A DNA stretch of 27,372 nt from a virus, in IMG/VR virus record IMGVR_UViG_3300048050_000028, positions 1 through 27,372 of that record. The stretch is one strand, 5' to 3'. The notes beneath the pieces are model-generated. The model worked only from the letters and a program-made list of their open reading frames with translations. It was not told the origin of the DNA and did no database searches. Shown here one piece after another: positions 2,861 to 25,461 of this stretch. The position numbers and the translations under genes are program-made. Position 1 is the first letter of the stretch; each line of letters begins with the position of its first letter.

Positions 2861-4531
2861 TCAAGCTGCCAAAGATGCTCTAGCATGTGCATCAGGATAG
2901 CGCAAGTATAATGCACTTACCTCTTGCAATACAACATCATCGGTATTTGAAACACCGGCTGCTTTTAAATCTAGCGCGAAACGTCTCCACTCGAAGCGAA
3001 TTGCTTTAACAAGATAATCGGCATCAAGTACCAAACCTTGATTAGAACGACCTAGTTGGTCAAACAAATCATGATAGATAACAAGCACTTCTCCAAAACC
3101 TGTACGGAAAGATTTGAATGTCAAATCCCAATTTTCAATAGAACTCTTTGTGATCTGATATTTGTCACCTTTGATTTTTTCAAAAGCAGCCAACATTTCA
3201 GAACCGCAAAGCAAGATTTTCTTATCAGAAGAATCATTACCGACGAATACAGATTTAGTAAAGTCTACTAATTGATCTACATCAATTGCAACATTAGATA
3301 CAGTGAATGCACCTGTTACTCCGGTTGTACCGGTATCGGTAAATGTAGGAGTACTGTAAGCTCCAACAGAAGATCTTATGAATGTAACAACGTTTGCATT
3401 AGCAGTAGCCGACCAACCAGAGAAAGTAGTTGCTGCAATTAATGCTGCAACGTCTGATGTTGATTTACCTGTACCAATTGCAATAGTATATGGAATACCA
3501 TTCAAAACAACTGTTACATTTCCTGCTGCTGTAGATGCATGCCCGACAGTAAATTGTAATGTATCAGGAGTACCGATCTGAACGTCACGTCCAGCTTGCC
3601 AGAATATACCTCCGGTAAAATACTGTTGTGTTTTCTTAAGATTATGTTTGATCTTACGTTTAGTACCCATAAGGTAACTAACCTCCATAGATCTCTTCAT
3701 ATCAAAGATTGCATCGTCTTCCAAATCACTGAAGTTCCAGTTAACTTCCTTAGACGCCATTTTGTCAAATGTAGTTTGACTAACTTGCGTCATGAAGTTT
3801 TGGACGTATTGCTCGTCCGCAGTAGGAACGGTTGTGAATGTACCTGTTTGAATATCTGATTCGGCACATGCCTTAGCAGCACGAACAAGAACTGTGTTTG
3901 CAGGAATAGCCGGAATAACGGTTGTCTGATTAGTGGATGTTCCCATCTTACCATTGACGGCATAAACGACAGGGAAACCGCTATCATCGCGTTTCAGCAC
4001 ACAGAGTTCAAGATCATGAGAAGACAAGGTAACTCCATCCTCTAAATAACCTTTTACACCTACACAGATGATGGTATCATCCTCTGTAAACATATTAGTA
4101 TTGGCTACATTTAAAGAGACAGTAGCTTCAGTAGTCTGAAGAGCTACGGCAGTTGTCAGAGAAGTAGACAACGGACGAGTACCAGCACTGTAATACTTAA
4201 CAATAGCAGAATCGGTTTTTACAACTCTTGCTGCTTTTCGTGATATCTGATCAATTGGTGTACGATTGGGACGAATACGGGTGATAATCTCATCTATATG
4301 TTTTGTATATAGATTATCAGGATTCATTATCTGACCACCTGTTTCGGTCGCTACTCCTGCTAGATCACCATGGTCACCTGCCACCTGCTCACCACCTCCG
4401 GCAAGTTCGGATGCATTTGCGGCTGCCGTGGCAACATCTTCTGCCATCATAACCCCACCGGGTACTCCGACAAACAGAGCTATAATAAACAATACAGCTC
4501 GTAGAATAAATTTAAACTTTTTACTTTTCAT
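2861..4531 (-). CDS. Major capsid protein (556 aa) with hydrophobic N-terminus
   Basis: Called as the major capsid protein from position (directly after the scaffold-like gene), size and overall sequence style: an N-terminal NLYTKHIDEIITRIRPNRTPID segment, Thr/Ala-rich beta regions, and a C-terminal part with LRYPDAHARA. This fits the HK97-fold capsid proteins of Bacteroidetes phages. Two oddities are visible. Residues 1-29 read like a signal peptide or membrane anchor: a KSKKFK basic start, a hydrophobic stretch at about 9-28, then MMAEDV. Residues about 316-412 look like an inserted beta domain (NVTVVLNGIPYTIAIGTG...SGWSATANANVVTFI) of a type that recurs in phage structural proteins. The start lies 12 bases after the scaffold stop. 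ATG codons at residues 28 and 29 are alternative starts that would remove the hydrophobic segment. Confidence 0.82.
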   Translation of the reverse strand: MKSKKFKFILRAVLFIIALFVGVPGGVMMAEDVATAAANASELAGGGEQVAGDHGDLAGVATETGGQIMNPDNLYTKHIDEIITRIRPNRTPIDQISRKAARVVKTDSAIVKYYSAGTRPLSTSLTTAVALQTTEATVSLNVANTNMFTEDDTIICVGVKGYLEDGVTLSSHDLELCVLKRDDSGFPVVYAVNGKMGTSTNQTTVIPAIPANTVLVRAAKACAESDIQTGTFTTVPTADEQYVQNFMTQVSQTTFDKMASKEVNWNFSDLEDDAIFDMKRSMEVSYLMGTKRKIKHNLKKTQQYFTGGIFWQAGRDVQIGTPDTLQFTVGHASTAAGNVTVVLNGIPYTIAIGTGKSTSDVAALIAATTFSGWSATANANVVTFIRSSVGAYSTPTFTDTGTTGVTGAFTVSNVAIDVDQLVDFTKSVFVGNDSSDKKILLCGSEMLAAFEKIKGDKYQITKSSIENWDLTFKSFRTGFGEVLVIYHDLFDQLGRSNQGLVLDADYLVKAIRFEWRRFALDLKAAGVSNTDDVVLQEVSALYLRYPDAHARASLAA

Positions 4532-4543
4532 ATTTTTCGTTAA

Positions 4544-5320
4544 TTACAAATTATGTCTTTTTGCCTTAGACCAAATATTCCTATTTTCGGGAACTTTGAA
4601 CTCATTGCTTTTTTGCATGATAGATTCTGATTTTCCATTAAGTGTAGGAACTTCCGGTTTAGCTAATTTTGCACGGTCGATTTTGTCATTCTTTGCTCTT
4701 ACGGCTGCTTGATTAGCAGCACTAGCAATATCATCCGAATAATTCTTTGCATGAATTACATCATCCAAAGTTTCAGGTTTGATAACGCCCATAAAGTAAT
4801 CATTGACGATTCCCTCTATACTGGATATAGCACCGTCCACTTCTTCCTCCTTGTACTTCCCTGACTTTACCAGACCGTCCATAGTTTCTAAAGACTTATT
4901 TAGATTCTTATCGAAATCTTTTTTAGTCTTTCCGCTTTCTTCTACTTTCTTCAAATAGTCATCTTGGTCCTTTTGAAGCTTAGCAACAACCTCAGGATCT
5001 TGTAATCTTGAAATCAAACCATCTACTCCATATCGTGTGACATAAGTTGAAAGCAAATCCCTTCCGTTCATTACGGATTGGAACAAAGAAGCATTGGCTG
5101 GATTTTTAGAAAAAGCATCAGAGATACGCTTTCTTTCGTTCTCGCTTTTATCGTAATTATCCATCAATCCGTGCATTTTTCCATAGTAAGCATCCTCATC
5201 GGATAAGTCTTCACCTGGGAATTTATCAGCGATTCTTTTTCTGAAAGCATCTTTTTTGCTTACAGGTGGCTCATTTTGAGCTACTTGATTTTCTATTTTT
5301 TTATCTTTCTCATCCGCCAT
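4544..5320 (-). CDS. Candidate scaffolding protein (258 aa)
   Basis: A highly charged, almost wholly helical protein starting MADEKDKKIENQVAQNEPPV, with a long Lys/Asp/Glu-rich central helix (VAKLQKDQDDYLKKVEESGKT...) and a basic tail ending IWSKAKRHNL. Charged helical proteins of this size encoded just before the capsid gene are typically internal scaffolds for procapsid assembly. No catalytic motif of a head-maturation protease is seen. It is the first gene of the left structural operon. The start at 5320 lies about 18 bases below the predicted transcription start from the promoter at 5344-5387. Confidence 0.68.
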   Translation of the reverse strand: MADEKDKKIENQVAQNEPPVSKKDAFRKRIADKFPGEDLSDEDAYYGKMHGLMDNYDKSENERKRISDAFSKNPANASLFQSVMNGRDLLSTYVTRYGVDGLISRLQDPEVVAKLQKDQDDYLKKVEESGKTKKDFDKNLNKSLETMDGLVKSGKYKEEEVDGAISSIEGIVNDYFMGVIKPETLDDVIHAKNYSDDIASAANQAAVRAKNDKIDRAKLAKPEVPTLNGKSESIMQKSNEFKVPENRNIWSKAKRHNL

Positions 5321-5410: not shown

Positions 5411-5839
5411 ATGAAAACGAAAGGATGCACATTCGACTTTTCTTGTCAGCGTGAGAAAGAATTGATGGAAGCTTACCATGAAGAGATGTCAAAAAAAGAG
5501 ATCAGTTCTTTTGAAGATGTGATTAATCGGGTTATACAACATCCTTGTAAACGTTTTTGGGTTTCAGAATATCGGGCGGCAAACATAATATCAAAGATGA
5601 TAAAAGGAGAAAGGCTCGAGAACATGAGTGAAATAAAGAGAGAAATGTTTAACGAAATCTATAATCGTTATCTATCGTCAAAATCAAAATACAGCACGTT
5701 AATAGACGCTATGTTTGATATAATCAATTCCCCCGCTCCAAAATTTTATATGTCTCCCGTAACCGCAACAATATACATATGCAAAATAAAGAAAAGCTGG
5801 TACAAATCCAGAATGAAAAAACTGCATGGATTATTCTAG
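5411..5839 (+). CDS. Small packaging-module protein with duplicated motif (142 aa)
   Basis: No named family is recognised with certainty. The protein begins MKTKGCTFDFSCQREKEL and is basic and helical. A motif occurs twice: VIQHPCKRFWVSEYRAANII near residues 46-65 and IINSPAPKFYMSPVTATIYI near 106-125. The shared pattern is I-x2-P-x2-[KR]-F-[WY]-x-S-x3-A-x2-I, suggesting two copies of one small helical DNA- or protein-binding unit. It is the first gene of the plus-strand operon leading to the rhomboid and the large terminase, so a small-terminase or packaging-accessory role is possible, by position only. The frame is open further upstream, but ATG 5411 is chosen because earlier starts run back through the divergent promoter and into the scaffold gene. 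Confidence 0.65.
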   Translation: MKTKGCTFDFSCQREKELMEAYHEEMSKKEISSFEDVINRVIQHPCKRFWVSEYRAANIISKMIKGERLENMSEIKREMFNEIYNRYLSSKSKYSTLIDAMFDIINSPAPKFYMSPVTATIYICKIKKSWYKSRMKKLHGLF

Positions 5840-6264
5840 CAGTTATGATCATTTGTTATTTCCTTCCATGCAAGGTTGGATTTAATCACAATTCTGTTTG
5901 GTATTCAAGATTTGTCTATCAATTCTTTCATGTAACCATTTGGCATTTGCTTATCAATCTTACCGCATTGTGGGAATTTAGAAAAGTGAAGTTTAGATAT
6001 TTCTTTGTCGCCTATCTTATTTCATGTCCTATACTTCTTTATGGAGATAAACTCACTATGGGATTTTCGGGGGTATTATTCGCTATTGGAGGTATGTGCG
6101 TAGGAACACAGAACAGCCGGTTACATGACAATATCTATTTTCTCATTACATTCGTCATTTCCTACTTCATTTATAGATGGGTAGGCATGTCTAATATATT
6201 CATTCACATCTACTGTTTTTATCTCGGTCAAATTTATGGAATATGGATGAAGAGGTGGTATTAA
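5779..6264 (+). CDS. Phage-encoded rhomboid intramembrane serine protease (161 aa)
   Basis: The sequence carries the rhomboid hallmark pattern. FFHVTIWHLLIN (His51, His56, Asn60) matches the HxxxxHxxxN of transmembrane helix 2 in GlpG, which forms the oxyanion side. GFSG at 95-98 is the GxSG motif with the catalytic serine at 97. IHIYCFYLGQIYG gives the catalytic His143 followed by the usual small-residue helix. About six hydrophobic segments are visible, and the total is short, as in minimal bacterial rhomboids without a cytosolic domain. Rhomboids cut transmembrane helices inside the membrane. The target here is unknown; a phage membrane protein or a host surface or secretion protein are both possible. 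It overlaps the gene before it by 61 bases and the terminase by 22 bases. Start 5779 keeps the first membrane helix complete. Confidence 0.86.
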   Translation: MQNKEKLVQIQNEKTAWIILAVMIICYFLPCKVGFNHNSVWYSRFVYQFFHVTIWHLLINLTALWEFRKVKFRYFFVAYLISCPILLYGDKLTMGFSGVLFAIGGMCVGTQNSRLHDNIYFLITFVISYFIYRWVGMSNIFIHIYCFYLGQIYGIWMKRWY

Positions 6265-8324
6265 AAATCATTGAAGAAAGTGACCGGCGCAATGTAGAAC
6301 ATGACAATTTCAATCCACTAACCGGTGAAGGATCTCCACTTAAACGCGAAAAAATACTCATTGAAGACTTCGGGGGAAATGATCACATCCAGTACATCCC
6401 AAAAGATATGCTTAAGAATAAGTTTGTGCGTTATCTTAAGGCTGCAAAGTCATTCAAAAAAATGTGGAAACTCCTTCACCCTAAAGCTGAATACAACGAT
6501 GAGATAAAAGATAAGCTTGAGAGAAAATATATAAAGATAAGGTCAAGATACGACTTTGCATTTTGGGCGTTCGTCTTTGTTATCATTCACGACAAAAGCA
6601 CGGGACGGGATATACATTTCAAATTAAACTATCCGCAGATATTACTACTTGAAACATTAGAAGAAATGCGCCTTGCCGGATTACCTATCCGTGTAATACT
6701 TCTTAAAGCCCGACAATGGGGAGGATCCACATTAACGCAAATATACATGGCATGGATTCAACTCGTGCATAAGACCGGTTGGAGCTCCATTATAATTGCG
6801 CATCAAGCTATCGCATCAGATAACGTAAAGGGTATGTTCGATACGCTTATTAATCATTACCCATTATGGATGCTTTATTCTCCCACAGATTCTTACAACG
6901 GGAAGGAACAAAAAATCAAACATTTCGGACGTACCGGATCTGTAGACATCATACCTTCACGTAATTGCAAGATCGGTGTAGGTACTGCTGAAAGCCCGGA
7001 ATCCGCACGTTCAAGCGATTTGGCTTTAGCCCATTATTCGGAAGTTGCTTATTGGAAAAAGACAGACAATAAATCTCCCAAGGATATTATCGGTTCTACC
7101 TCTTCATCAATCATGGATATACCCTGGACGATGATTGTAGAAGAATCAACGGCAAACGGCTATGGGGACTTCTTTTATCAGGAGTATGAAGATGCCAAGA
7201 TGCTGAGATCAAATTATAAGGCATTGTTTATTGCATGGTTCCAAATAAAGATTTACAGGAAATCATTTGGATCTATCGAGGATAAAGAAGAATTTGCTAA
7301 AAATCTATATGAATCGAAAGAGAATAAGGTTGAAATAGACTTACGACATGAATGTGGGGCATACTTATGGAAGTTGTGGGAAAGTGGTGCCTCATTGGAA
7401 GCGATAAACTGGTATATAACAAAAAGGAAAAGTTATACGGACCATGCGACAATGGCTGCCGAATTTCCGACAGATGATATCGAAGCCTTTAAACTTTCCG
7501 GTCAGATGGTATTTGACCAATACCTCGTTGACAAATTTAAATCCGGTTGCAAAGTTCCCGAATTTATCGGAGAGGTGCAAGGTGATGGCATCGACGGAAA
7601 AAAAGCATTGATAAATCTTTCATTTATAGATGATCGACAGGGTCACTTGTGGATGTGGAAGAAACCATCCTTCATGAAAGTATCAAATAGGTACATTGTA
7701 TCTGTAGATATCGGAGGACGCTCAAACAAGGCGGATTGGTCCGTAATAAGAGTATTTGACCGATTTTGGATGAAAGATGGTGAAGGTCCGGAACTCGTTG
7801 CACAATGGTACGGACATATTGATCACGATTTATTGTCATGGAAAGCGGCCCAGATAGCAAAATATTACAATGATGCTCTATTAGTCATTGAAAGCAATAC
7901 ATTGGAAACAAAAGATCCATCCGTCGACGGTGATCAGTCCGGGTTTATCTTAAACCAAATAAAGAATGTATACGATAACATCTATGCCCGCCGACAATCG
8001 GAGGAAGATATAAAGATGCATAATCCGGTCCGTTACGGGTTCCATACGAATACCTCGACCAAACCTGCACTCATATCAAACATGATAAGGGTTGTTCGTG
8101 AAAAAGGTTATATCGAACGTGATGAAAGATGCTTGAATGAATATAGAGTTTACGAGAAAAAGAAAAACGGATCATACGGGGCGATTGCCGGTGCTCATGA
8201 TGATATATTAATGAGTACGGCCATTGCATTGTGGGTATCGACTTATGAGATGGACATACCCCAATTAATACAACGAGGAGATAAGATAAAAATAAATACG
8301 GCCATTTCGGCAGCAACCATTTAA
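6243..8324 (+). CDS. terL: Terminase large subunit (693 aa)
   Basis: ATP-driven motor and nuclease that packages phage DNA into the procapsid through the portal. The ATPase half shows a Walker-A-like KARQWGGST (residues 155-163), a Walker-B-like strand ending in the catalytic Glu267 (LALAHYSEVAYW), and a coupling motif ESTANG at 301-306. The RNase-H-like nuclease half shows its acidic residues: Asp489 in VSVDIGG, Glu550 in LLVIESNTLE, and Asp653/654 in GAHDDILMSTA. The length is usual for the family, and both domains look intact. The N-terminal 100 residues are an extra helical region. It overlaps the rhomboid gene by 22 bases, and the small 125-residue gene follows after 11 bases. It lies on the strand opposite to the portal, which is not the common arrangement. 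Confidence 0.95.
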   Translation: MDEEVVLKIIEESDRRNVEHDNFNPLTGEGSPLKREKILIEDFGGNDHIQYIPKDMLKNKFVRYLKAAKSFKKMWKLLHPKAEYNDEIKDKLERKYIKIRSRYDFAFWAFVFVIIHDKSTGRDIHFKLNYPQILLLETLEEMRLAGLPIRVILLKARQWGGSTLTQIYMAWIQLVHKTGWSSIIIAHQAIASDNVKGMFDTLINHYPLWMLYSPTDSYNGKEQKIKHFGRTGSVDIIPSRNCKIGVGTAESPESARSSDLALAHYSEVAYWKKTDNKSPKDIIGSTSSSIMDIPWTMIVEESTANGYGDFFYQEYEDAKMLRSNYKALFIAWFQIKIYRKSFGSIEDKEEFAKNLYESKENKVEIDLRHECGAYLWKLWESGASLEAINWYITKRKSYTDHATMAAEFPTDDIEAFKLSGQMVFDQYLVDKFKSGCKVPEFIGEVQGDGIDGKKALINLSFIDDRQGHLWMWKKPSFMKVSNRYIVSVDIGGRSNKADWSVIRVFDRFWMKDGEGPELVAQWYGHIDHDLLSWKAAQIAKYYNDALLVIESNTLETKDPSVDGDQSGFILNQIKNVYDNIYARRQSEEDIKMHNPVRYGFHTNTSTKPALISNMIRVVREKGYIERDERCLNEYRVYEKKKNGSYGAIAGAHDDILMSTAIALWVSTYEMDIPQLIQRGDKIKINTAISAATI

Positions 8325-8335
8325 AAATTAAAGAT

Positions 8336-8713
8336 ATGTTTGGATTTATATTTAAAAAGAGACTTGAAGCCGCAATCAATTTAGCGGATAATGCACACGA
8401 GAAAACAGGTGACAGGTATTATGTACTACCTTACGGATTCGACCTAAGAATCTTCTCGAAAAAGGATTTCATGAATTATAAAAGAAATGGATTGATTCCC
8501 CGTAGAAACAAAATGGGTAATGTGATCAATACTTGTTTCTATTACACGAGCAATAAGTTCGGAAATAAACCGTCCCCCGAATTCTTGCAAAAGAAAGTGG
8601 AGGACGGTCTAAAAATTATGAACGAGTATTATAAGTATTACCTCACTAGTAAATTTCTCAACTGGTGCAAGAAATATAAACTCACTAGTAAATTAGTTAT
8701 CAAATTAAGCTAA
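8336..8713 (+). CDS. Unknown small basic protein (125 aa)
   Basis: Not recognised. The protein is Lys/Tyr-rich and soluble. It starts MFGFIFKKRLEAAINLADNA, has a central segment DRYYVLPYGFDLRIFSKKDF, and ends with two short repeats LTSKF and LTSKL encoded by a 14-base direct repeat. It follows the terminase after 11 bases and is probably co-transcribed. Its last nine bases overlap the 3' end of the portal gene on the other strand, so the two operons meet tail to tail with no room for a separate terminator. A role in packaging is conceivable from position only. Confidence 0.65.
   Translation: MFGFIFKKRLEAAINLADNAHEKTGDRYYVLPYGFDLRIFSKKDFMNYKRNGLIPRRNKMGNVINTCFYYTSNKFGNKPSPEFLQKKVEDGLKIMNEYYKYYLTSKFLNWCKKYKLTSKLVIKLS
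8642..8694 (+). repeat. 14-base direct repeat in the 3' end of the 125-aa gene
   Basis: CTCACTAGTAAATT occurs at 8642-8655 and again at 8681-8694, 39 bases (13 codons) apart and in the same reading frame, encoding LTSKF and LTSKL. It could be a small in-frame duplication at the C-terminus. Confidence 0.7.
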
Positions 8714-10645: not shown

Positions 10646-13600
10646 TTATTTTATTTTATCTATATCCTTTAAAAAACTTGCTTTATCCATATTGTAAGAT
10701 AACTCGTACATTTTTCTATCAGAGTCGGAAGTTGCATCTTTCAATGCCTTTCTATCAGAGTCAAGTGTTTTTTCCCAATCCTGATAGACTTCATACATTT
10801 TATAATTCTTAGAGTTGTATATTTTTGTTAGCTCTTTGGATGAATCAATAATCCCCTTTTCCTCCTCTTTCGAGAAACCTGATATTTGATTTTTGACATC
10901 TTTCATTTTATCGTTAATATCATAGAATCTTTCATTAACTGCACCGAATTGATTCATATCATCCGAAGGAGACTGCAAGAAAGAACTTACTATTGGTAGA
11001 TTACGGTACTGACGTTGCGATGGATCATTAATCATCAGTGCAGTTTTTACCGCTTGGTTGATGGTAGAAAATGTTCCACCTAAATAACCGGTAAAGATAT
11101 GTTCAAAATCAGCGGGGTTAATATTTATGTATCCACCGTGATGAGCATTTCCACCAGTTATATTATTCAATATCTTACTTGCATTTACTAATTCTTTATT
11201 GGTTCCTGAATAGACTTTTGTATATTCAGGTTCTAAGTCATTGTAACTATCTTTATGTATCTTCTTCCCAAAATAATCCTTGTTTACCATTACTTGCGCA
11301 ATTGGCTTTACTACGTCGGGAACAAGCAATGCCATGCCCATTCCCTTAAGTGAAGCATCGTTATTTCCCTGCAGCATATTTACAGGCAAGACATCTAAGA
11401 ATTGTCCAAGTATATCCAAAGCTCCCTCTTCAGGTGTTTTGTCATAAGTATGGTTTACGATATGATATAATTTCTCACCGAGACCATAGAAGGATCTATC
11501 CTCAATTGAGATTGGTATACTTACAGATTTTCCAAAAGGTAAAGAAATAGTCAAATCATTTTCTCTAATCCAAGATGGGATATTATCATACTCGCTATCA
11601 TCCCCACTCCCGGCACCATTAATTATTAACTTGCTGATAATTGGGGCACATGCACCAAGTGCAACAAGGAATGATTTATCCAGCATAAATTTGAATTTAC
11701 TTGCATCCCATAAATCCTTTTGAAGCTTTAAAGATTGAACGCCTGCATTAAAGAATAACATGGTATCTTGACACCAACCTGCAAGCCCAAATCCTGAACC
11801 TTTCTTATTAAAGTTTACTGTGATATTTTTTGCATCTGACACAGATGTAATGATAGATCGTCCCATTTGCCGAGAAGTAAGATAGGTGTTGAAACGTGTA
11901 ACATCCTCCGCACATCTATTTGCCAACTCTATGCCATTTCCAACAATATTCAAAAGATCAACCGGTTTCATCGTGATATCTTTCCCCTTGCTACGAGTAA
12001 GTTTCTTTATTTCTTTATCAATTATTCCTTTATACTCTTCGATTGTGTTGATATTGGTATATCCTGTTTCCCCTCCATTTGTCATAAACTCATGGAAATA
12101 CTTTTCCATCGGATCGTTTATATCAAGTTTGTTGTTTTGGAACTTTCTCATTAATGAAACAATCTTCATATCACCTCCGGCATAACCGGCTGTTACAATT
12201 CCTAGCGATTGATTTAATCCGCCAATTGCTGCATTCTCCATCCATCTTTTGAAATAGGACGAACTCTCTTTTACAAATACGGCATTGCTGGCAAACTCCA
12301 TATCCTTTGCCAAGTTCCTTACAACAAATGCAGGGTTGGCGGTTGTAAAGAACATAGCCATGTGCCCCATAATGTAACGAAGGATTTTTCTAGGTACCCA
12401 ATCACTCGAATTACGTATCATTCCATTGAGTGCCTGGGCTGCTCTAGGATTACCATTTACATGTACTGTATATGACTCTCCATTTAAACGAACCTGAACA
12501 TCGTGCTGTGACTTCTCATTATTCGTAGCGACATATTTTAAATCAATTCCATTCGGTCTTTGAGTAGCCGTGCCCTCTTCTTGCTTTTGCCTCATCTCAT
12601 TCAACCACTCATCACGAATCTTAGTAGCTTGATCTGCTGTTGATTTTTCCGGGATATCCGGATAAGATTCTTTCCAAACGGGCTTTTGTTTTGTGCCGGT
12701 ATTTATGTACCACATTCTATCCGCACCCAAAAGCTTTGATGGATGATTCACAGCGAAGTTATATAATTTTTGATTGACAAGATTACGGTTGCCGTCAGAT
12801 ATTGTACGTTGCCCGACTGCTCCGATAGTAGCTAGAGGATCATCTGCTAAAGATACACGTCCACGAGCTGCCTTTATAGTACCAATGGCAAAGTTTTGAG
12901 GTCTATCATCAAAGTATTCATAAACATCAGAAGCTACATCCTCTTTAAATCCGCGAAGAGGAATATAGTTGACAAACATTCGTTTGGTATTATTATATTG
13001 AGATTTACTGATTGTCCCACTTTTGAATGCCTTTTCAAGTGTTTTTTTAGTTGCATCGTTTATATAGTCCCATAAGGTCTTCGTATCATACGAACTTTCT
13101 ATATCATTTACCGAATCTAAAGCTTTGTCTTCCCATGTACCATCCTCATTATTCTCTTCGTCCTCTTCGTTCTTAAATATACTTGAAATTCCTGAACGAT
13201 CCTTGTATTCAAATTCAGGTACTAAATTAGCAGCAAAGTCTTTCAGCTCTTGGTTCTTTTTATATAAGTCCTTATCACTCTTCTCTAGCTCGTCCCTAAA
13301 CTTATACAATGAATCATACTTCCCGTTTATCAAAGAATCTATCTTATCTTTCGTTTCCTTTGAATTATCACCTTTGGAGAGAGCATCTAATAATAATTGA
13401 TTCCTTTCTCCCTCAACGGCATCACGGAAAGACTGGATAATGTTTCTTTCAAGTCCGTGCTTTTCTATTAGGTAATTTACAATTTGATTATAAGTCATTC
13501 CGGTCTTTTGCATATCAGCAACAGCCTTAAAGATAGGCTTCATGTATGTTTCATTAAACATCTCATTTTCGACCTTATTGATAGATGAAACATGATTCTC

Positions 13601-16600
13601 TGCTGTGTATGGATCTTCCCATTCTTGCAACTTCTCGTTGCGTTCCTTAAGCACAGAATCTATAAGGACTTTGAGCGAAGCCATATTGTCGACAAATGCT
13701 TCACGACCTAATCTAAACCACTTGTCACCTACAATTTGCTCGTACATTCTTGTTGCTGTTCTATGAGAAACCTCGTTAGCATCTTTTCCACGATAAAGTA
13801 TCTTCTCAGGAGAATAAGTAAGATCAATCTTACCATTCTTAAGTTTAGAATAAGACGCTTGAATAAGTGAACGTATATCATTATCTGATAAACGGAATCC
13901 GAGTTTTATTTTTGCATTGGCAATTGCAGAACGAACCTGATCACAGACATAATGCCATAAATTATGATCGGTTGTATTTTCTGCCATACGGGCCATATAC
14001 TCATCCACTTCTCTATCTTGGTCAAACTTGGTAAAGTCCCCTCCACTATTTCTGAACCGTTCTATGATAGAGTTGCGTATTGCATCATTCTTCCAAACAG
14101 AATCTAGTAAATGAGTAAAATTATTTCCTAACAAATTACGAAGTCCGTAGTGACCGACTGTTTCATGTAAGATGGTCCGTTGCGCGTCTTCGGGAGAATC
14201 TGCATTATCCATGTTTACGACTACTTCACCGGTCTTTGTGTTAAACCAGCCCTTAGCCATCTTTTGCCTATCGGTTAAATCGTCTTCATTTGTAACTTGT
14301 TTTATGGGAGTATTCAATGATTCGGCAATAGACTTTACAGAAGAATCTACCTGGTCAGTTAATTGCTTTGATTGTATTTCTGATTCACGATAGAGATTAT
14401 TATCATCAACATTAATCGGTTTATCCGACCGCTCTAATATCTTGTCATTGCTTACCGTATAAGAACGTCCATTTGATTCTATGGTGATTCCATTCTTTGT
14501 ACTACCAACTACTTTACCCGATACAATGGTGCCATCCATAAATTTTGCCTTGGCGTAATCCGGTACTTTACTTTCTTTATCCGATGGACTGGGATTTATT
14601 TCTTCTTGGCTTTCGCCTCTTCCGCGTATGAATCCCGAAGCATCTTTCGATGTCTCGCTATTTCCTCGTCCCAATCTATCTTCCGGTTCTTCTGATCCTC
14701 TAGATATTTCTTGGCTTTTTCCGAACTTTCCTTGTGAAACTGATTCAGATACTCTGTCATTTTCGTTATTTTTATTATAATCTATTCCTCTTTTTTCTAA
14801 CGATCTTCTCGCCGCTTTAGTACTTTCGTTATCAAGATTACCATTTGCAGATTTAATGAGTTGCTCTACCGGTGTAGGATTTCGTATTTCTCCATTATTT
14901 ACTTTATTTTGATATTCCTTACGTAACTCATCTCTTCGAATTTGAAGATCTTTATCCTTCTCATTTTGGATATCAATTATCTTATCTTGTTGATTTTCGG
15001 TTTTTTGTTTTCCTTTATGAATAGCACTATCCCCAAAATCATACCCTGCACCTTTTGATGAAAGATATTCCTCTTCCGTCATTACAGGAATCGGATTAAT
15101 ACTTTTATAGTCCGCGAATGCTTTTGTTTTACGTTTAGAAGAATCCAGCCACTTTTTAAAGTCCTCTTTCGATACCTCGGTAATATTTCCTAATCCTTTC
15201 CATCCTTTTCCATAATTGGATAGATAAGCTTTCTCGGCATCGTCTTTAGAATCGAATCCGTACATGACTTTATGTTCATCAAATTCACCTGTTTTCGGAT
15301 TGACTTGATCAACAACATAAACATTGCCGGAATCAGGATGGCTAGAGAAGTATACATCAACATGGTCACCATCTACACCTGTTGTTCCACGGATATATCC
15401 GTAGTCATTATGCATAGATGTTTTCCAAACTTTGCCATCCTCTGAGACACCACGGCGGACGCTACCGGCAGGATTTTCAATAGTAACATCCATGCCGTCA
15501 ATCTTAACGTGCCCTTTCTTATAGTTTCCAGCTTCTTTCTGTGCATCTGTCGGATTAGTGTCAACATCCCCACGGACGTCTTTTATCTGAGATTCATTTG
15601 GATGTTCTAACTCATTTATTCTCTTTTCTGCTTCATCTGCTATAAACTTATTAGCCTTTTTATACTCCTTGGGCCATCCTCTTCTTTTTTCATCTTTTCT
15701 CGCCATCCTTAAGGTTGTCTGTAAGGTGTCGAGGTCAGAAGATGAGTTTATAAAATCAGATATTTTCTTTTCAGTTTCTTCAATATTCTTACCATCGTGA
15801 TAAGCATTTACTAAGTCAACTGGAGTTACTTCTTCATTTGGTTTTGTAGAAACAGGTTCAGTGCTTTCTGTTCCCCGTTCCTGTCCCTGGTTATCGGAAT
15901 GTTCTGTTCCTTGCAATACTTCACTGCTTCTTTCATTACTTGCATCAGATCCTTGTCCTTCAGGTAATTCTTCGCGAATTCTGTTATATTCATTATCTAT
16001 TTCATTTAATATGTCATCATGTTGTTCAGGTGTAAGTGCATCTAGTTCACTATCCAAGTATCCGATATAACTTACATAATCTTTTACATCAGTCCCCAGC
16101 ACATCTGCTTTGTCTTTGTAAAGATAATAATCTTTTGGAGAAACACCATCTTCAGAAGCCTTCTGTAATAATTCATCATACATCGGTTCCAACTCTTTCG
16201 GAGTTATGCCCAACTCACTTGCAAGATTATTTATTTCTTCACTTTTTGTATTGGTTTGATCATGCAACTTTTGTGAGGCATTAATCATTTCACGAGTAGA
16301 ATTATTCGTTCTTACCGCATCAATAATCATATTTCGTATATCCTGCTCACTTACATTATCAAATGCATGTTCATCGTCATTCTCTTTGAGATATTGAGCA
16401 AGTCCGGAAGGTGTATATCCCTCATTACTCAAAAGGCTTATGCGTTTACGACGTTCATCTTCACTCATTCCAAGTTCAGATCCTAAGCCCTTGTCTCCAT
16501 TTTTATCGGACCATCTTAATAAGTGCCCTTGTGACAAAGCACGATAGACCTCATCTTCCGGAGAAACACTCTCTCCCAATTCTTTATTTATATCAGCAAT

Positions 16601-19600
16601 TGACTTATTAACATCTTCTTTATAATTGGATATTGAATTCCATGCGCCCGACTTTTGCTTAAGATCATCTACTTGTTTCTGCCAAGCATCATGACGTTTC
16701 TCATAATCCTCTTGCCATGCCTGATATCTAGCATTAAAATCCAAAGGAGATTCTCCACGATTAAGTTTTGGAGCCTCGCTTATCTTCGGCTCTTGTTTCT
16801 TTAGATTGGCTAAATCTTCTTTTAATAAAGACCTTTGGCCATCAGCATAGTTCTTTATTACCTCATCCGATAAGCCCTTTCCACGCATGTCATAAACAGC
16901 CTCATCGGGAGCCATTGATGTATAATCGACTTCTTTAGATTGAGCGTCCTTTGATTGAGTTTCTTTTTGCTGAGGCTGAACTTCATTCATCAGGGATTGA
17001 TAGTAGTTCAATTCTGCTTGGGCATTGTTTATGTCTGATTGCTTATTCTGTTCGTTTTGTAAAAACTTCTCACGATCCGTTGCTGTATTCTTTTTATTTT
17101 GAGCTGCAGTAAGTTTCTTTTGAGCAGAATCAATATTGTTTTGAATAAAAGTTTGTACTTGATCAGCAGGCATTTTAGACTTCAAATCATCAATGACCTC
17201 TTTGGGAGTAGCAGGCTTTTGTTCTTTAGGTTGCTCAACAGGTGGATTGTTTACAATATCCGCAAGGTTGTCTGCCGTTAGAGGCCGCTTTTGGTACATC
17301 TGTCCGTTCTCATCATATAAAGCGAATGCCGATGCAGGTTTTCCATTTTTATCCTTGCTCTCATACCCTTCATTAATAGTATAGTCTTTCCCTCCTATGT
17401 TTACTGTTTCGCCAACTTTGCCTCTCCAATAATCAGGAGTAGCCATTTCAGCTTGCTGATTCTTTTGTTCTTCTTGTTGTTGAACCTGTTTAGTTTGTTG
17501 CTCATTCTCTGCCTGAATATCCTGCATTGATTTGGCATCCGCATATTCATTTAATTGATCAGGAGTAGAAATATAAGAAGTATGGCCATCTGTAAATACG
17601 ATTCCGTCTGGAGTGACCTGTGTAACTTGAACGTTCATAGGTTTACCACTGACCAGTACACTGTATTGTTCACCAGGCTGAAAATCTCTCTTACCGTTTA
17701 TTTCATCTGCTAATTGTTCAGATAACTGACTATAGATGCCTTCGCCAACACGTTGCTTCATTGCATCCGATGGCTCTACAGAGTTGATCGATATGTCACT
17801 AATAGGGACCATCTGCATTTGTCCGTCTGAATCTTTAATGACTACAGTATCATCACTCTGTTTAGGATCAACTTCACCGTTCTGATCAAATCCTATTTTG
17901 CCGGATAAGACATTAATAGGGTTGTCACTACGATCCGTTGCAGAATATACATTCCCATCTACATGAGTAATTCCGTCAATTTGTTGGTTGTTCGCATCAA
18001 CTGTTTGAGATATATTATCTTGTGCAGCATGAATCATTCCATTGTACTTTGCCGAAAGATTGAAATAATTGATAGCGGCCTGTACCTTATCTTCCGACAC
18101 ACCCATATCACGCAAAGCTTGAATCTTCTGTGCAGGAGTTCCAGGCATTGCATCCAGCTTGGAAGTATCTACCTGATCAGAGACAACTTGTAATCTTAAT
18201 TTAGTATCTGCTTTCTCTTGGGGATCCGTAGTAGTCAGTCCTTGGTCATAACTAGCCTCACCTGTCATTTGGTTATTATCCAAATCGCCTTCAGTCTTTT
18301 TCTTAAGGTCCGCGATATTATAACCGTTTGCAAAAGTCTTAGCTCCGATATAACCGAGTATGGCCGCCTTTTCTTTTTGGTTTAGATAATCGGTGTTTTT
18401 TATTCCATCACCATAAGCTTTCAGAGCATCCATGTCCGAATTATCTATATCTGTTTTAAAGCTTTGCCAATCACCTCCAAGTACATTGAATCCATTTATG
18501 TCCGATCTATTTAATAAAGATCTAGCTTGACGGCGTCCGGTAAAATAGCCTGCAGAGTGTACGGCAGAAAAGAATCCGGACATTAAGGCTACAGATAAAA
18601 ATGTATTAAGGTTTTGTTTAGGATCTACTACATCCGCCCATGATTGATCACCTACTGTAGCAGCATTCATTACATTTCCTACGACCTCTTCACCATATTC
18701 ACCTAGAGCACCATTCCAATGTGCATGTTTTTCAAAACCTGAAAGTGCTTGTGATAGTTCAGACGCTTTGGCTGCTGTAAGAAAATCAGCAACCTTATTC
18801 AATTGTAAAACTTTGCCTACTTTTGAAGATGCCATTTTACCAACAGCTCCTTTGATTGCATTTCCGGCCGGAGAGAAATACTCACCGAACATTTCCGAAT
18901 AGTCTTGTATGAATTCGTTTAATGCAGATTTACCAATAGCCTTAACAGTATTGTCGCCTCCCTGTGTACCGGCATATTGTGTATATCCTTGCGGACTTAT
19001 CTTTGTCTGAATATTTCCTGTTGCTCTTTGGGTAGCATCAGCAGTAATACGAGGCATACCGAATGTAGCCTCAACTCCAACCGCCTTTACAGCATCACCA
19101 ATCAATCTAGCAGAAGTAGAGGCAACCTTTTTTAATATTGCACTACTACCAAATCTTTTCAGTACATAATTAGTTAAATTCTTTGTTACAGCGTCTCCTA
19201 CACTTTCTCCCGGATTCAACAAGAATTCAGCCATATAAGGTATAGACTGTCCGGTCGTAAGTCCTGCATTATAAGACATGCCTATTTGATTACCATAACT
19301 TTGATCTACTGCCTGTTTCACAGCCGCCGAAGTCAATGCAAGATTATCAGCATACGAAGCCTTACCTTGCTTCTGACGTTGAATAGCTTGCAATGTTGCG
19401 AGAGCATTTGCCGCTTGAATAGTTTGTCCCGGTATGTAAGTATACTGTCCTGTAATAGCATCTTTTAATCCTGATAGTATATTGCTTGCTATTCCTACAC
19501 CGGCATTCTGTCTTGCAACTTGGTCAATGGTTTTCTTTGATTCTTCCAAACTCCCCAAAGCCGCCTCAGCCGAAGCATAACTAGGATCCAAATTTCTAAG

Positions 19601-20434
19601 ATTCATCAATCCGCCAAAACTTTGCAATGCGGCCGGATTGTTTTTAGTAAGCGCATCAAATCTTTGTGAAGCTACTTGAGTTGCCTTATCCTGCAAATCT
19701 TGTACTTGTTGTCTGAGTACCGCTTGCGCATAAATATCTTTAGATTGATTCGCTTGATTCTGCAATGAAGTTATTTGACTTTGCAACAATTGCTCATTGC
19801 TGGGAGCATCTTTACCTGTTGTTTGTTCTAATGAATTACCTAATCCGTTATCTTGTGTAGCAAGAGGAGTAAGCGCCGGCTCTGCAGGTTGACCGGCAAC
19901 AGTAACTTGTGGCTGTAATTGATTCTCCGCTTCCTGTCCTGTAATAGGTTGGTAATTGCTCAAAGGGTTGGTTTGTGCAATAGGTGCTGGCGGTGTTGCT
20001 TGTGTAGGCTGTTGTAAATAAGATGGTGGAGGCGTATTTTCTACGTCTTGTATATTCTCTGTCTGTGGAGCAACCGGTGTAGTATCAGGTTGTACGATAG
20101 GTCCGTTATTGTCAGGAGTAACAGCATTTCCATTATCATCGTTTTCAGGCTGATTATCATCAACCTGATTCGTTTGATTATTAACCCTTGTTTTTGTTGG
20201 ATAAGGGTTGTTATGCTGGTATACTTGTCTTCCTCGTTGATTAACGATTTGAGGATTCGTTATTCTAAGATGCCAATTTTCATTTGATGGGCGTTGAGGT
20301 TGTACGGGTTGTCTAGGTTGAGCATTATCATTCATCGAGACGATCTTACTATCCGAAGGAGCGACCGACATGAATCCTTTCAATTCTTCTTTCGGAACTT
20401 GATATGTACCTTGACTATTTTTTACTACAGGCAT
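10646..20434 (-). CDS. Giant polyvalent virion protein candidate (3262 aa): pyrophosphatase-like, zincin peptidase and LPD38-like domains
   Basis: Domains by approximate residue: 1-220 Pro/Gln/Asn-rich, disordered; 330-640 Ala/Gly-rich amphipathic helices; 870-1120 two small beta units separated by Gln-rich coil; 1120-1600 charged coiled coil; 1625-1770 inorganic-pyrophosphatase-like; 1770-1990 charged linker; 2060-2200 zincin; 2200-2690 helical; 2690-3230 LPD38-like, beginning NPAFVVRNLAKD. In the pyrophosphatase domain DYGYIRGT is followed by DGDHVDV with Asp1688, 1690 and 1693, close to the family-I active-site signature. The zincin has HETVGH (His2090, Glu2091, His2094) and a likely third ligand Glu2145 in DEYMARMAE. 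Fusions of this kind are known as large polyvalent proteins, thought to be packaged and ejected with the DNA to act in the new host. Position before the portal supports this. No frameshift is seen. Confidence 0.85.
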   Translation of the reverse strand: MPVVKNSQGTYQVPKEELKGFMSVAPSDSKIVSMNDNAQPRQPVQPQRPSNENWHLRITNPQIVNQRGRQVYQHNNPYPTKTRVNNQTNQVDDNQPENDDNGNAVTPDNNGPIVQPDTTPVAPQTENIQDVENTPPPSYLQQPTQATPPAPIAQTNPLSNYQPITGQEAENQLQPQVTVAGQPAEPALTPLATQDNGLGNSLEQTTGKDAPSNEQLLQSQITSLQNQANQSKDIYAQAVLRQQVQDLQDKATQVASQRFDALTKNNPAALQSFGGLMNLRNLDPSYASAEAALGSLEESKKTIDQVARQNAGVGIASNILSGLKDAITGQYTYIPGQTIQAANALATLQAIQRQKQGKASYADNLALTSAAVKQAVDQSYGNQIGMSYNAGLTTGQSIPYMAEFLLNPGESVGDAVTKNLTNYVLKRFGSSAILKKVASTSARLIGDAVKAVGVEATFGMPRITADATQRATGNIQTKISPQGYTQYAGTQGGDNTVKAIGKSALNEFIQDYSEMFGEYFSPAGNAIKGAVGKMASSKVGKVLQLNKVADFLTAAKASELSQALSGFEKHAHWNGALGEYGEEVVGNVMNAATVGDQSWADVVDPKQNLNTFLSVALMSGFFSAVHSAGYFTGRRQARSLLNRSDINGFNVLGGDWQSFKTDIDNSDMDALKAYGDGIKNTDYLNQKEKAAILGYIGAKTFANGYNIADLKKKTEGDLDNNQMTGEASYDQGLTTTDPQEKADTKLRLQVVSDQVDTSKLDAMPGTPAQKIQALRDMGVSEDKVQAAINYFNLSAKYNGMIHAAQDNISQTVDANNQQIDGITHVDGNVYSATDRSDNPINVLSGKIGFDQNGEVDPKQSDDTVVIKDSDGQMQMVPISDISINSVEPSDAMKQRVGEGIYSQLSEQLADEINGKRDFQPGEQYSVLVSGKPMNVQVTQVTPDGIVFTDGHTSYISTPDQLNEYADAKSMQDIQAENEQQTKQVQQQEEQKNQQAEMATPDYWRGKVGETVNIGGKDYTINEGYESKDKNGKPASAFALYDENGQMYQKRPLTADNLADIVNNPPVEQPKEQKPATPKEVIDDLKSKMPADQVQTFIQNNIDSAQKKLTAAQNKKNTATDREKFLQNEQNKQSDINNAQAELNYYQSLMNEVQPQQKETQSKDAQSKEVDYTSMAPDEAVYDMRGKGLSDEVIKNYADGQRSLLKEDLANLKKQEPKISEAPKLNRGESPLDFNARYQAWQEDYEKRHDAWQKQVDDLKQKSGAWNSISNYKEDVNKSIADINKELGESVSPEDEVYRALSQGHLLRWSDKNGDKGLGSELGMSEDERRKRISLLSNEGYTPSGLAQYLKENDDEHAFDNVSEQDIRNMIIDAVRTNNSTREMINASQKLHDQTNTKSEEINNLASELGITPKELEPMYDELLQKASEDGVSPKDYYLYKDKADVLGTDVKDYVSYIGYLDSELDALTPEQHDDILNEIDNEYNRIREELPEGQGSDASNERSSEVLQGTEHSDNQGQERGTESTEPVSTKPNEEVTPVDLVNAYHDGKNIEETEKKISDFINSSSDLDTLQTTLRMARKDEKRRGWPKEYKKANKFIADEAEKRINELEHPNESQIKDVRGDVDTNPTDAQKEAGNYKKGHVKIDGMDVTIENPAGSVRRGVSEDGKVWKTSMHNDYGYIRGTTGVDGDHVDVYFSSHPDSGNVYVVDQVNPKTGEFDEHKVMYGFDSKDDAEKAYLSNYGKGWKGLGNITEVSKEDFKKWLDSSKRKTKAFADYKSINPIPVMTEEEYLSSKGAGYDFGDSAIHKGKQKTENQQDKIIDIQNEKDKDLQIRRDELRKEYQNKVNNGEIRNPTPVEQLIKSANGNLDNESTKAARRSLEKRGIDYNKNNENDRVSESVSQGKFGKSQEISRGSEEPEDRLGRGNSETSKDASGFIRGRGESQEEINPSPSDKESKVPDYAKAKFMDGTIVSGKVVGSTKNGITIESNGRSYTVSNDKILERSDKPINVDDNNLYRESEIQSKQLTDQVDSSVKSIAESLNTPIKQVTNEDDLTDRQKMAKGWFNTKTGEVVVNMDNADSPEDAQRTILHETVGHYGLRNLLGNNFTHLLDSVWKNDAIRNSIIERFRNSGGDFTKFDQDREVDEYMARMAENTTDHNLWHYVCDQVRSAIANAKIKLGFRLSDNDIRSLIQASYSKLKNGKIDLTYSPEKILYRGKDANEVSHRTATRMYEQIVGDKWFRLGREAFVDNMASLKVLIDSVLKERNEKLQEWEDPYTAENHVSSINKVENEMFNETYMKPIFKAVADMQKTGMTYNQIVNYLIEKHGLERNIIQSFRDAVEGERNQLLLDALSKGDNSKETKDKIDSLINGKYDSLYKFRDELEKSDKDLYKKNQELKDFAANLVPEFEYKDRSGISSIFKNEEDEENNEDGTWEDKALDSVNDIESSYDTKTLWDYINDATKKTLEKAFKSGTISKSQYNNTKRMFVNYIPLRGFKEDVASDVYEYFDDRPQNFAIGTIKAARGRVSLADDPLATIGAVGQRTISDGNRNLVNQKLYNFAVNHPSKLLGADRMWYINTGTKQKPVWKESYPDIPEKSTADQATKIRDEWLNEMRQKQEEGTATQRPNGIDLKYVATNNEKSQHDVQVRLNGESYTVHVNGNPRAAQALNGMIRNSSDWVPRKILRYIMGHMAMFFTTANPAFVVRNLAKDMEFASNAVFVKESSSYFKRWMENAAIGGLNQSLGIVTAGYAGGDMKIVSLMRKFQNNKLDINDPMEKYFHEFMTNGGETGYTNINTIEEYKGIIDKEIKKLTRSKGKDITMKPVDLLNIVGNGIELANRCAEDVTRFNTYLTSRQMGRSIITSVSDAKNITVNFNKKGSGFGLAGWCQDTMLFFNAGVQSLKLQKDLWDASKFKFMLDKSFLVALGACAPIISKLIINGAGSGDDSEYDNIPSWIRENDLTISLPFGKSVSIPISIEDRSFYGLGEKLYHIVNHTYDKTPEEGALDILGQFLDVLPVNMLQGNNDASLKGMGMALLVPDVVKPIAQVMVNKDYFGKKIHKDSYNDLEPEYTKVYSGTNKELVNASKILNNITGGNAHHGGYININPADFEHIFTGYLGGTFSTINQAVKTALMINDPSQRQYRNLPIVSSFLQSPSDDMNQFGAVNERFYDINDKMKDVKNQISGFSKEEEKGIIDSSKELTKIYNSKNYKMYEVYQDWEKTLDSDRKALKDATSDSDRKMYELSYNMDKASFLKDIDKIK

Positions 20435-24009: not shown

Positions 24010-24079
24010 ATGTTCATCTTTGAACATTTCCGCTACTTTCTATCGAAATACGATAATATTCATGTTCAACTTTGAACAT
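24010..24079. repeat. Two copies of an 18-base inverted repeat flanking a third dyad
   Basis: ATGTTCATCTTTGAACAT (24010-24027) and ATGTTCAACTTTGAACAT (24062-24079) differ at one loop base; each is a perfect 7-base inverted repeat with a 4-base spacer. Between them lies TATCG-AAATA-CGATA (24041-24055), another dyad. The second copy covers the stop codon of the integrase gene. The arrangement suggests protein-binding sites, or a pair of hairpins at the convergent ends of two transcripts. No T-run follows, so simple termination is less likely. Confidence 0.7.
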
Positions 24080-25244
24080 CTTCTCCATTTAAATAATCAA
24101 TCACCTTTCTATTAGCCTCATCAACTTTATTCTTATCAAGCTTTATATAGATAGATGTTACTGAACTTCCTATTTCATGTCCAAGAGCTGCACTTATCGT
24201 TTCTTTTGGTATATCCAACTCTGATGCCAACGTTGCCCACGTGTGCCGACTAGCATATGTTGTTATATTCGGCAATATGGGATGAAAGACTTTCTTTCCA
24301 CTGCGCCCTACTAGATCATATTCTCCTATTTCCTTTAATCGATGGTCCATCTGATGCCGAAAATTTTCATAATTCGTATAAGGCAAATCAATTATTTTCT
24401 TTTCTCCCTTATATTTATCAATGATTTCCTGAGCTTCCGGCTCTATTTTGACGCTGTAGAGCTTATTTGTCTTCGCACGATGATATACTAGTCTATCACC
24501 CGAAACGTTATCTACGGTCAACGAGAACAGATCTACGCAGTTTATTCCGATAAGATAGAACATCAACATGAATATATCTCTGTATTTTTCTTGAAAAGGC
24601 TCAACCGGATAATCACGTAACATTCGCAACTGGTCTACCGTCAAAGCACGCTTTGCAGTTTCTTCCTTCTTGATTGAAAAACGTCTAAATGGATAGTTGG
24701 TTGTTAATTCTTCGTCAAGGCAATAGTTGAATACTGCTCTCATATTACGCATATGAATTCCTCGAGCATTTATTTTCATTGTTTCTGCCAACCAATTATC
24801 AAAATTTATCAGCCATTTACGATCAACAGACTCCAGCGTACAATTAGGATCATATTTCTCCAGCTTTCGAAGAGTTTCAGTATATACTCTTTTAGTACCC
24901 GGTCTCTTTTTTAAATTAATGAATTCCTTCAAATAGAAAATGAAGTTCTTCTTTACTTTCACTTCCTTATCAAAAAGAAGTTTTTCTAAAGTTGCACGTA
25001 ACTCCTTATCTCCAATTCCTTTATCACACGAAAGGAAATAAGTTTCTATTTTGGAAACCATATTTGAAAGTTGTACATTCCTTGCTGCATACATTCCGAT
25101 ATACTTTCCATCTTTCCATTCTTGCTCATTCGCAAAATATCCAGAGGATATCATAAACCTTCCAACATGGTTTATATAGAATTTAATTGAATACCTTCCA
25201 TCTGTGGAAATCCATCTCTTGTCTAAAAAAAGTTTTATTTTCAT
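24066..25244 (-). CDS. int: Tyrosine recombinase / phage integrase (392 aa)
   Basis: Site-specific recombinase that inserts and excises the prophage. Residues 1-95 form the arm-binding-type N-terminal domain common in Bacteroidetes integrases (SIKFYINHVGRFMISSGYF). Residues 97-190 are the SAM-like core-binding domain, and 200-385 are the catalytic domain. The nucleophile is Tyr366 (TSIYIKLD), with His356 in ALGHE, Arg333 in YASRHTWAT and Lys258 in RAKT. Two usual positions differ: the first arginine (normally GxR) is Asn235 in FYLIGINCVDLF, and the His of box II is Tyr330. This variant occurs in the Bacteroidetes integrase group as I recall it, so activity is still likely. It is transcribed away from the tRNA-Gly gene and converges with the small HTH transcript. 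Confidence 0.93.
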   Translation of the reverse strand: MKIKLFLDKRWISTDGRYSIKFYINHVGRFMISSGYFANEQEWKDGKYIGMYAARNVQLSNMVSKIETYFLSCDKGIGDKELRATLEKLLFDKEVKVKKNFIFYLKEFINLKKRPGTKRVYTETLRKLEKYDPNCTLESVDRKWLINFDNWLAETMKINARGIHMRNMRAVFNYCLDEELTTNYPFRRFSIKKEETAKRALTVDQLRMLRDYPVEPFQEKYRDIFMLMFYLIGINCVDLFSLTVDNVSGDRLVYHRAKTNKLYSVKIEPEAQEIIDKYKGEKKIIDLPYTNYENFRHQMDHRLKEIGEYDLVGRSGKKVFHPILPNITTYASRHTWATLASELDIPKETISAALGHEIGSSVTSIYIKLDKNKVDEANRKVIDYLNGEDVQS

Positions 25245-25375: not shown

Positions 25376-25388
25376 CATTATCAATGCG

Positions 25389-25461
25389 AGCGGCAAAAGG
25401 GACTCGGACCCTCGACCCTCAGCTTGGGAAGCTGATGCTCTACCAACTGAGCTACTACCGC
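25389..25461 (-). tRNA. tRNA-Gly (anticodon CCC), probable phage attachment site
   Basis: The minus strand folds into a full cloverleaf: acceptor GCGGTAG/TTGCCGC with wobble pairs, D arm AGCTCAGTTGGTAGAGC, anticodon stem TCAGC/GCTGA with loop TTCCCAA giving anticodon CCC (glycine, codon GGG), and T arm GAGGGTCCGAGTCCCTT. The discriminator is T and CCA is not encoded, as in many Bacteroidetes tRNAs. The 3' end points to the integrase 144 bases away, so the phage core attachment sequence most likely lies in the anticodon-to-3' half, which the phage restores on insertion. Confidence 0.95.

Follow-up and report, generated by a model that had tools for sequence, protein, structure and literature searches.

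The presence of a rhomboid intramembrane protease gene between the terminase genes of a phage raises the question of what the enzyme would cut, and at which step. The window, that is, the whole stretch of 27,372 nucleotides of a virus record that we analyzed, holds a tyrosine integrase gene (24066-25244) with a tRNA-Gly beside it (25388-25461) and is therefore a prophage; judged from its relatives, its host is probably a member of the Bacteroidales. The tRNA-Gly is a likely attachment site, past which lie host genes for a PAP2-phosphatase and an Smr-like protein. After the portal gene, positions 10646-20434 are taken up by one ORF of 3262 aa, the counterpart of which in Bacteroides phage BKO1-TP3 is annotated as DarB-like antirestriction.

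Rhomboid gene and packaging operon

The rhomboid gene (5779-6264, plus strand) encodes 161 aa and was identified by its translation together with profile and structure matches. It overlaps by 61 nt (5779-5839) a TerS-like ORF of 142 aa (5411-5839, plus strand, phrog_27246), whose position and conservation point to a small-terminase function, and by 22 nt (6243-6264) the gene for the terminase large subunit, TerL (6243-8324, plus strand, 693 aa). Protein X (8336-8713, plus strand, 125 aa, phrog_22658) is encoded 3' of TerL in the same operon. The minus strand carries the major capsid protein, MCP (2861-4531, 556 aa), assigned to the SU10_MCP/HK97 fold by Pfam PF17236 (E 1.7e-24) and by fold search, and, in the interval separating MCP from the divergent TerS operon, a putative scaffold-like acidic protein of 258 aa (4544-5320). 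The original prediction had placed the core rhomboid residues in a 161-aa protein overlapping the terminase gene. The ORF translation bore this out, with H51 at 5929-5931, H56 at 5944-5946, N60 at 5956-5958, S97 at 6067-6069 (within G95-F-S-G98) and H143 at 6205-6207, and the overlap proved to extend to the TerS-like ORF as well as TerL.

The window copy by itself was a weak query. It reached 16.8 bits (E 0.0079) against Pfam Rhomboid PF01694, for which the gathering score is 22.6 bits. No rhomboid in the PDB was matched by phmmer, a PHROGs search gave nothing useful, tblastn against phage records returned one weak match only, and scanning the viral collection brought up only a near-copy (L002). 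Because single-sequence searches were weak, relatives of the rhomboid were reached through relatives of TerL, and among them L003 (40.7 bits), L025 (30.2), L008 (28.3), L038 (28.0) and also L032 exceeded the PF01694 gathering score. When a profile of the family was searched against the PDB, only GlpG entries fell below E 0.001 (best 5.5e-8), and the HxxxxHxxxN, GxSG and late His of the profile aligned with those of GlpG. Structure prediction, a check set beforehand, gave the same answer. The AF2 model (pLDDT 76, pTM 0.75) has six helices, and its top match was GlpG (Z 16.0, 2.5 A over 150 residues; Foldseek probability 1.00), with the Ser and His of the dyad present and aligned by motif. The iRhom and Derlin folds were matched too, more weakly than GlpG. 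The gene product is a rhomboid protease with the GlpG fold and a conserved Ser-His dyad, encoded inside the TerS-TerL operon. A soluble prohead-protease fold was also considered for this protein and was rejected, as the fold is that of a rhomboid; at most the protein works like such a protease.

We compared 72 non-redundant relatives with a median pairwise identity of 27%. H51, H56, G95, S97 and H143 were invariant in 72 of 72, and N60 was present in 71. Catalytic residues that stay invariant at so low an identity indicate selection for catalysis, and loss of these residues in close relatives did not occur, Ser and His being kept in every one of the 72. One near-duplicate (L162, close to L158), which the redundancy filter had excluded, has Arg in place of His51, which may reflect genuine variation or faulty sequencing. 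The dN/dS of the rhomboid was 0.08 against its nearest relative, L002 (18 synonymous and 6 non-synonymous changes), mostly 0.1-0.3 in other pairs, and 0.47 at the maximum; it was higher than that of TerL within every pair where both were computable. Judged from its sequence, the rhomboid is a protease in which selection preserves catalysis while the rest of the protein diverges fast, and apparently an active intramembrane protease.

Distribution of the rhomboid

Scans with TerL yielded 33 loci, then the best 80 of about 470 genome loci and the best 80 of about 540 viral loci; with three lytic Bacteroides phages (BS-TP4, BKO1-TP3 and BF1-TP2), the survey took in about 190 phage and prophage loci. 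A survey of conservation beside the terminase had been proposed in advance, and the rhomboid was found in the TerS-TerL slot in 82 of the 177 loci in which TerL was preceded by 900 nt or more of sequence. In many loci with no rhomboid in the slot, the TerS-like ORF directly abuts or overlaps TerL. In six rumen Prevotella genomes, the rhomboid adjoins TerS and is separate from TerL. Locus L138 was rejected as a rhomboid-negative, as the C-terminus of a rhomboid is present beside an assembly gap.

Some of these genes had been seen before. In BS-TP4 and BF1-TP2, the rhomboid was annotated by the depositors, and the BKO1-TP3 copy is labelled a glycoside hydrolase, its note recording a structural match to a rhomboid; all three belong to the same family and occupy the same slot as the window copy. 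The TerL of these three records (PQ571277.1, PQ571269.1 and PQ571263.1 for BS-TP4, BKO1-TP3 and BF1-TP2; L035-L037) is annotated 'tail spike protein'. The annotated rhomboids of Podoviridae sp. ctzXp5 and ctsfx1 are related to the window rhomboid by structure only. No function was assigned to annotated phage rhomboids in the records examined or the literature searched.

Capsid protein leader and its occurrence with the rhomboid

In phages with the rhomboid, the N-terminus of MCP is basic and hydrophobic, e.g., MKKTMSFFCRITLMILAFVTGASSGVMMAEASNLPDAG. The window's leader comprises MCP residues 1-30, MKSKKFKFILRAVLFIIALFVGVPGGVMMA (4442-4531, minus strand), with a basic N-terminus, a hydrophobic helix and a stretch of small residues. 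It is the strongest hydrophobic segment among the phage structural genes of the window, the rhomboid excepted. Leaders open with two to four Lys/Arg, continue through roughly 16 hydrophobic residues and close with a conserved GASSGVMMA. The strongest columns in an alignment of 51 leaders were the G-A that closes the hydrophobic segment, G-V, M, and an Ala (48 of 51, otherwise Cys or Gly), past which the sequence continues as A/D/E, A, x-L-P-D-A-G. VMMA, residues 27-30 of the window MCP (4442-4453, minus strand), represents the conserved V-x-M-A, and the candidate rhomboid site follows A30. AF2 models the leader of the window MCP as a helix of its own (4-20), set off by a disordered linker (residues 22-89, pLDDT <50) from a capsid domain that matches HK97-fold capsids, that of Vibrio phage VP1 first.

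The rhomboid and the leader were scored together in 98 loci: 51 had both, 38 had neither, nine had the leader only, and none had the rhomboid only. Among 101 Bacteroidales loci, a set that includes 13 rumen Prevotellaceae genomes and lies apart from the nine leader-only environmental phages, 59 had both, 42 had neither, and none was discordant; three Prevotella leaders in this set were missed by the regular expression and scored by eye. All 3 switches on the MCP tree were concordant for the two traits, as were all 7 on the TerL tree, 3 of them on starred branches. Those on the MCP tree include L159 and the domesticated rumen Prevotella copies. A sign test on the 3 well-supported independent switches gave p 0.25, significance being impossible at n = 3. 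So few switches mean that the case rests on the whole pattern. The leader-only outgroup (L004, L007, L014, L021, L028-L030, L033 and L034) consists of environmental viral contigs that, together with the rhomboid-positive L008, make up one side of the TerL tree. Their leaders are longer and have no V-x-M-A end. A rhomboid elsewhere in these nine virus records was not found; the records are probably fragments. These phages, with long hydrophobic MCP N-termini and no rhomboid detected, count against the proposed trimming.

The joint presence and absence of the two traits suggests, from comparative data, that the rhomboid trims the capsid protein. The original prediction had listed the N-terminal hydrophobic segment of the capsid protein among several possible substrates, and the joint pattern supports that role; nothing was found to favor the others, namely cleavage of a holin, superinfection exclusion and action against a host defense. 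Removal of the leader could also be the work of the host. The leader resembles a Sec signal peptide in its basic n-region, its h-region and an A-x-A at its end (Ala in 48 and 45 of 51), so signal peptidase I stays a rival for the cut itself, in which case the rhomboid would either clear the leftover leader peptide or act on a different membrane protein, of phage or host. We regard this as unlikely, although the least so of the alternatives: it leaves the constant joint loss of rhomboid and leader unexplained, and no other family of membrane proteins near TerL tracks the rhomboid. Joint occurrence would likewise be accounted for if the rhomboid were a non-proteolytic membrane chaperone or dislocase for the leader, in the manner of Derlins and iRhoms, whose folds are among the weaker matches of the model. 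The iRhoms and Derlins lack the catalytic residues, whereas Ser and His are invariant here, and we consider this explanation highly improbable.

Protein X was the only family near TerL that tracked the rhomboid. It was found near TerL in 37 of 50 rhomboid-positive loci compared to 0 of 38 without the rhomboid; scored by profile, 69 loci had both and 72 had neither. Seven of the eight loci with protein X only fall within the leader-only part of the tree or among its neighbors, and the eighth is L138, with its rhomboid remnant. This distribution indicates that protein X tracks the leader-type capsid rather than the rhomboid, and it was confined to phages with that type of MCP; a second gene that follows the leader counts against the proposed trimming. 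Protein X is soluble, with no membrane-spanning segment predicted, and matched nothing in Pfam or NCBIfam; it is perhaps a leader-binding or head protein.

Natural losses and unlinked genes

In most phages, MCP and the rhomboid lie within about 3 kb of each other and could therefore travel as one module. Two sets of loci bear on this. Locus L159 is nested in the rhomboid-positive capsid clade and has no rhomboid, no protein X and no hydrophobic leader. Its MCP reads MRKFWNVLYGIEGRRSQMKMAASTLPDAGK, compared to ..GALMAAASALPDAGK in its neighbors, and retains the MAASTLPDAGK that comes after the leader in those neighbors. The rumen Prevotellaceae carry MCP, TerS with the rhomboid, and TerL each as a single chromosomal copy, dispersed among host genes. 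Nine of these genomes have the rhomboid and retain the leader, and a clade of four has neither. The MCP of these four starts MSTKMNLPDAG or M(A/S)TEN(N/R)LYQGG; in one (G036), MSTKMNLPDAG begins directly past the lost leader. MCP and the rhomboid are unlinked in the rumen Prevotellaceae (about 18 kb apart in G022), so hitch-hiking in a head module is not an easy explanation there. The rumen copies are a domesticated element, possibly one resembling a gene transfer agent. Dispersed single copies of the MCP, tail, TerS plus rhomboid, scaffold and TerL genes were noted in L081, L086, L099, L101, L109, L117, L068, L103 and L238-L240. One rumen Prevotella MCP (L209, genome G026) carries TAG in frame at a position that is Gln in relatives, so either the copy has decayed or the codon is recoded.

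These loci also bear on whether the rhomboid is an accessory gene of the moron type, serving superinfection exclusion, counter-defense or remodeling of the host membrane, with its link to the leader a product of hitch-hiking. Stenotrophomonas phages DLP3 and DLP5 encode a rhomboid too, and that of DLP3 (gp93) is encoded not near the head genes but elsewhere in its genome (PMC7326821). The DLP5 report mentions morons that act on the host membrane (PMC5834331), and the faster evolution of the rhomboid relative to TerL would suit such a gene. An accessory role does not, however, fit the fixed slot, the joint loss with the leader even where MCP and the rhomboid are unlinked, or the retention of the rhomboid in domesticated copies, where exclusion would bring little benefit. 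We judge it quite improbable, more so than cleavage by signal peptidase.

Proposed role in head assembly

We conclude that the rhomboid probably removes the N-terminal membrane leader of MCP before or during head assembly, and we give this reading, drawn from sequence comparison, a probability of about 0.7. The cleavage itself, the cut site, the topology and the timing relative to head assembly are what we infer. MCP would be made with its leader inserted in, or lying on, the inner membrane. The rhomboid would cut where the leader's hydrophobic stretch ends or close by, most likely after VMMA, and the soluble HK97-fold part, tethered by its long flexible linker, would be freed for head assembly. 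Expression from one operon with the terminase would synchronize the protease with assembly and packaging. The broader proposal, for which we see slightly better than even odds, is that an HK97-fold MCP is a membrane-anchored precursor released by the phage's own rhomboid, which gates head assembly at the inner membrane, and that the pair is kept even in domesticated elements of rumen Prevotella, which possibly resemble gene transfer agents. Rhomboids favor hydrophobic residues at P4 and small ones at P1. The key positions of the rhomboid cleavage motif are P4, P1 and P2' (PMC2941825), and V-x-M-A, with A, C or G last, fits a motif of this kind. The basic N-terminus of the leader, by the positive-inside rule, predicts an N-in/C-out orientation and so a capsid domain outside the cytoplasm, which counts against the proposal; the leader may be only partly inserted, or may be cut before translocation.

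Rhomboids, and annotated phage rhomboids, were already known; the pairing with a capsid leader is new, as is the mechanism if confirmed. The open-access literature, which leaves most subscription journals outside, held no paper tying a rhomboid to a phage capsid, no description of an intramembrane protease at work in any step of a tailed phage, no report of an HK97-fold capsid protein as a membrane-anchored precursor, and no paper on virion proteomics for the TP phages. Beyond that literature, we know of no such tailed-phage step or precursor. If true, the proposal would add a route to capsid maturation, place part of head assembly in gut phages at the membrane, and provide a natural enzyme-substrate pair for bacterial rhomboids, with many sequence pairs for work on specificity.

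Comparison with known systems

The phage protein shares with GlpG and other bacterial rhomboids (MEROPS S54) the six-helix fold, HxxxxHxxxN, the GxSG Ser and the His of helix 6, at 14-19% identity in structural alignment. Unlike them, it has only 161 aa and no cytoplasmic domain, lies in a packaging operon and is proposed to have one dedicated substrate. Rhombosortase (TIGR03902) was the best NCBIfam match of the relatives, at 17-28 bits (best 28.3) against a cut-off of 84 bits, and the window copy was unmatched. Rhombosortases are likewise small, consist of the core only and serve one dedicated kind of substrate tag. Their tags are C-terminal (GlyGly-CTERM), whereas the tag in the phage system would be an N-terminal leader on the capsid protein. 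PARL cuts the N-terminal anchors of PINK1 and PGAM5 near the C-terminal end of the helix (PMC9436811). The predicted cut in the MCP leader is similarly placed, with acidic residues downstream; PARL, however, is mitochondrial and has no phage link, and the phage cut site is only predicted. The prohead proteases of HK97, T4 and other phages offer the parallel in head building, as the rhomboid would likewise take an N-terminal piece off an HK97-fold MCP. The known proteases of this kind are soluble and work inside the prohead, whereas the phage rhomboid would act within the membrane.
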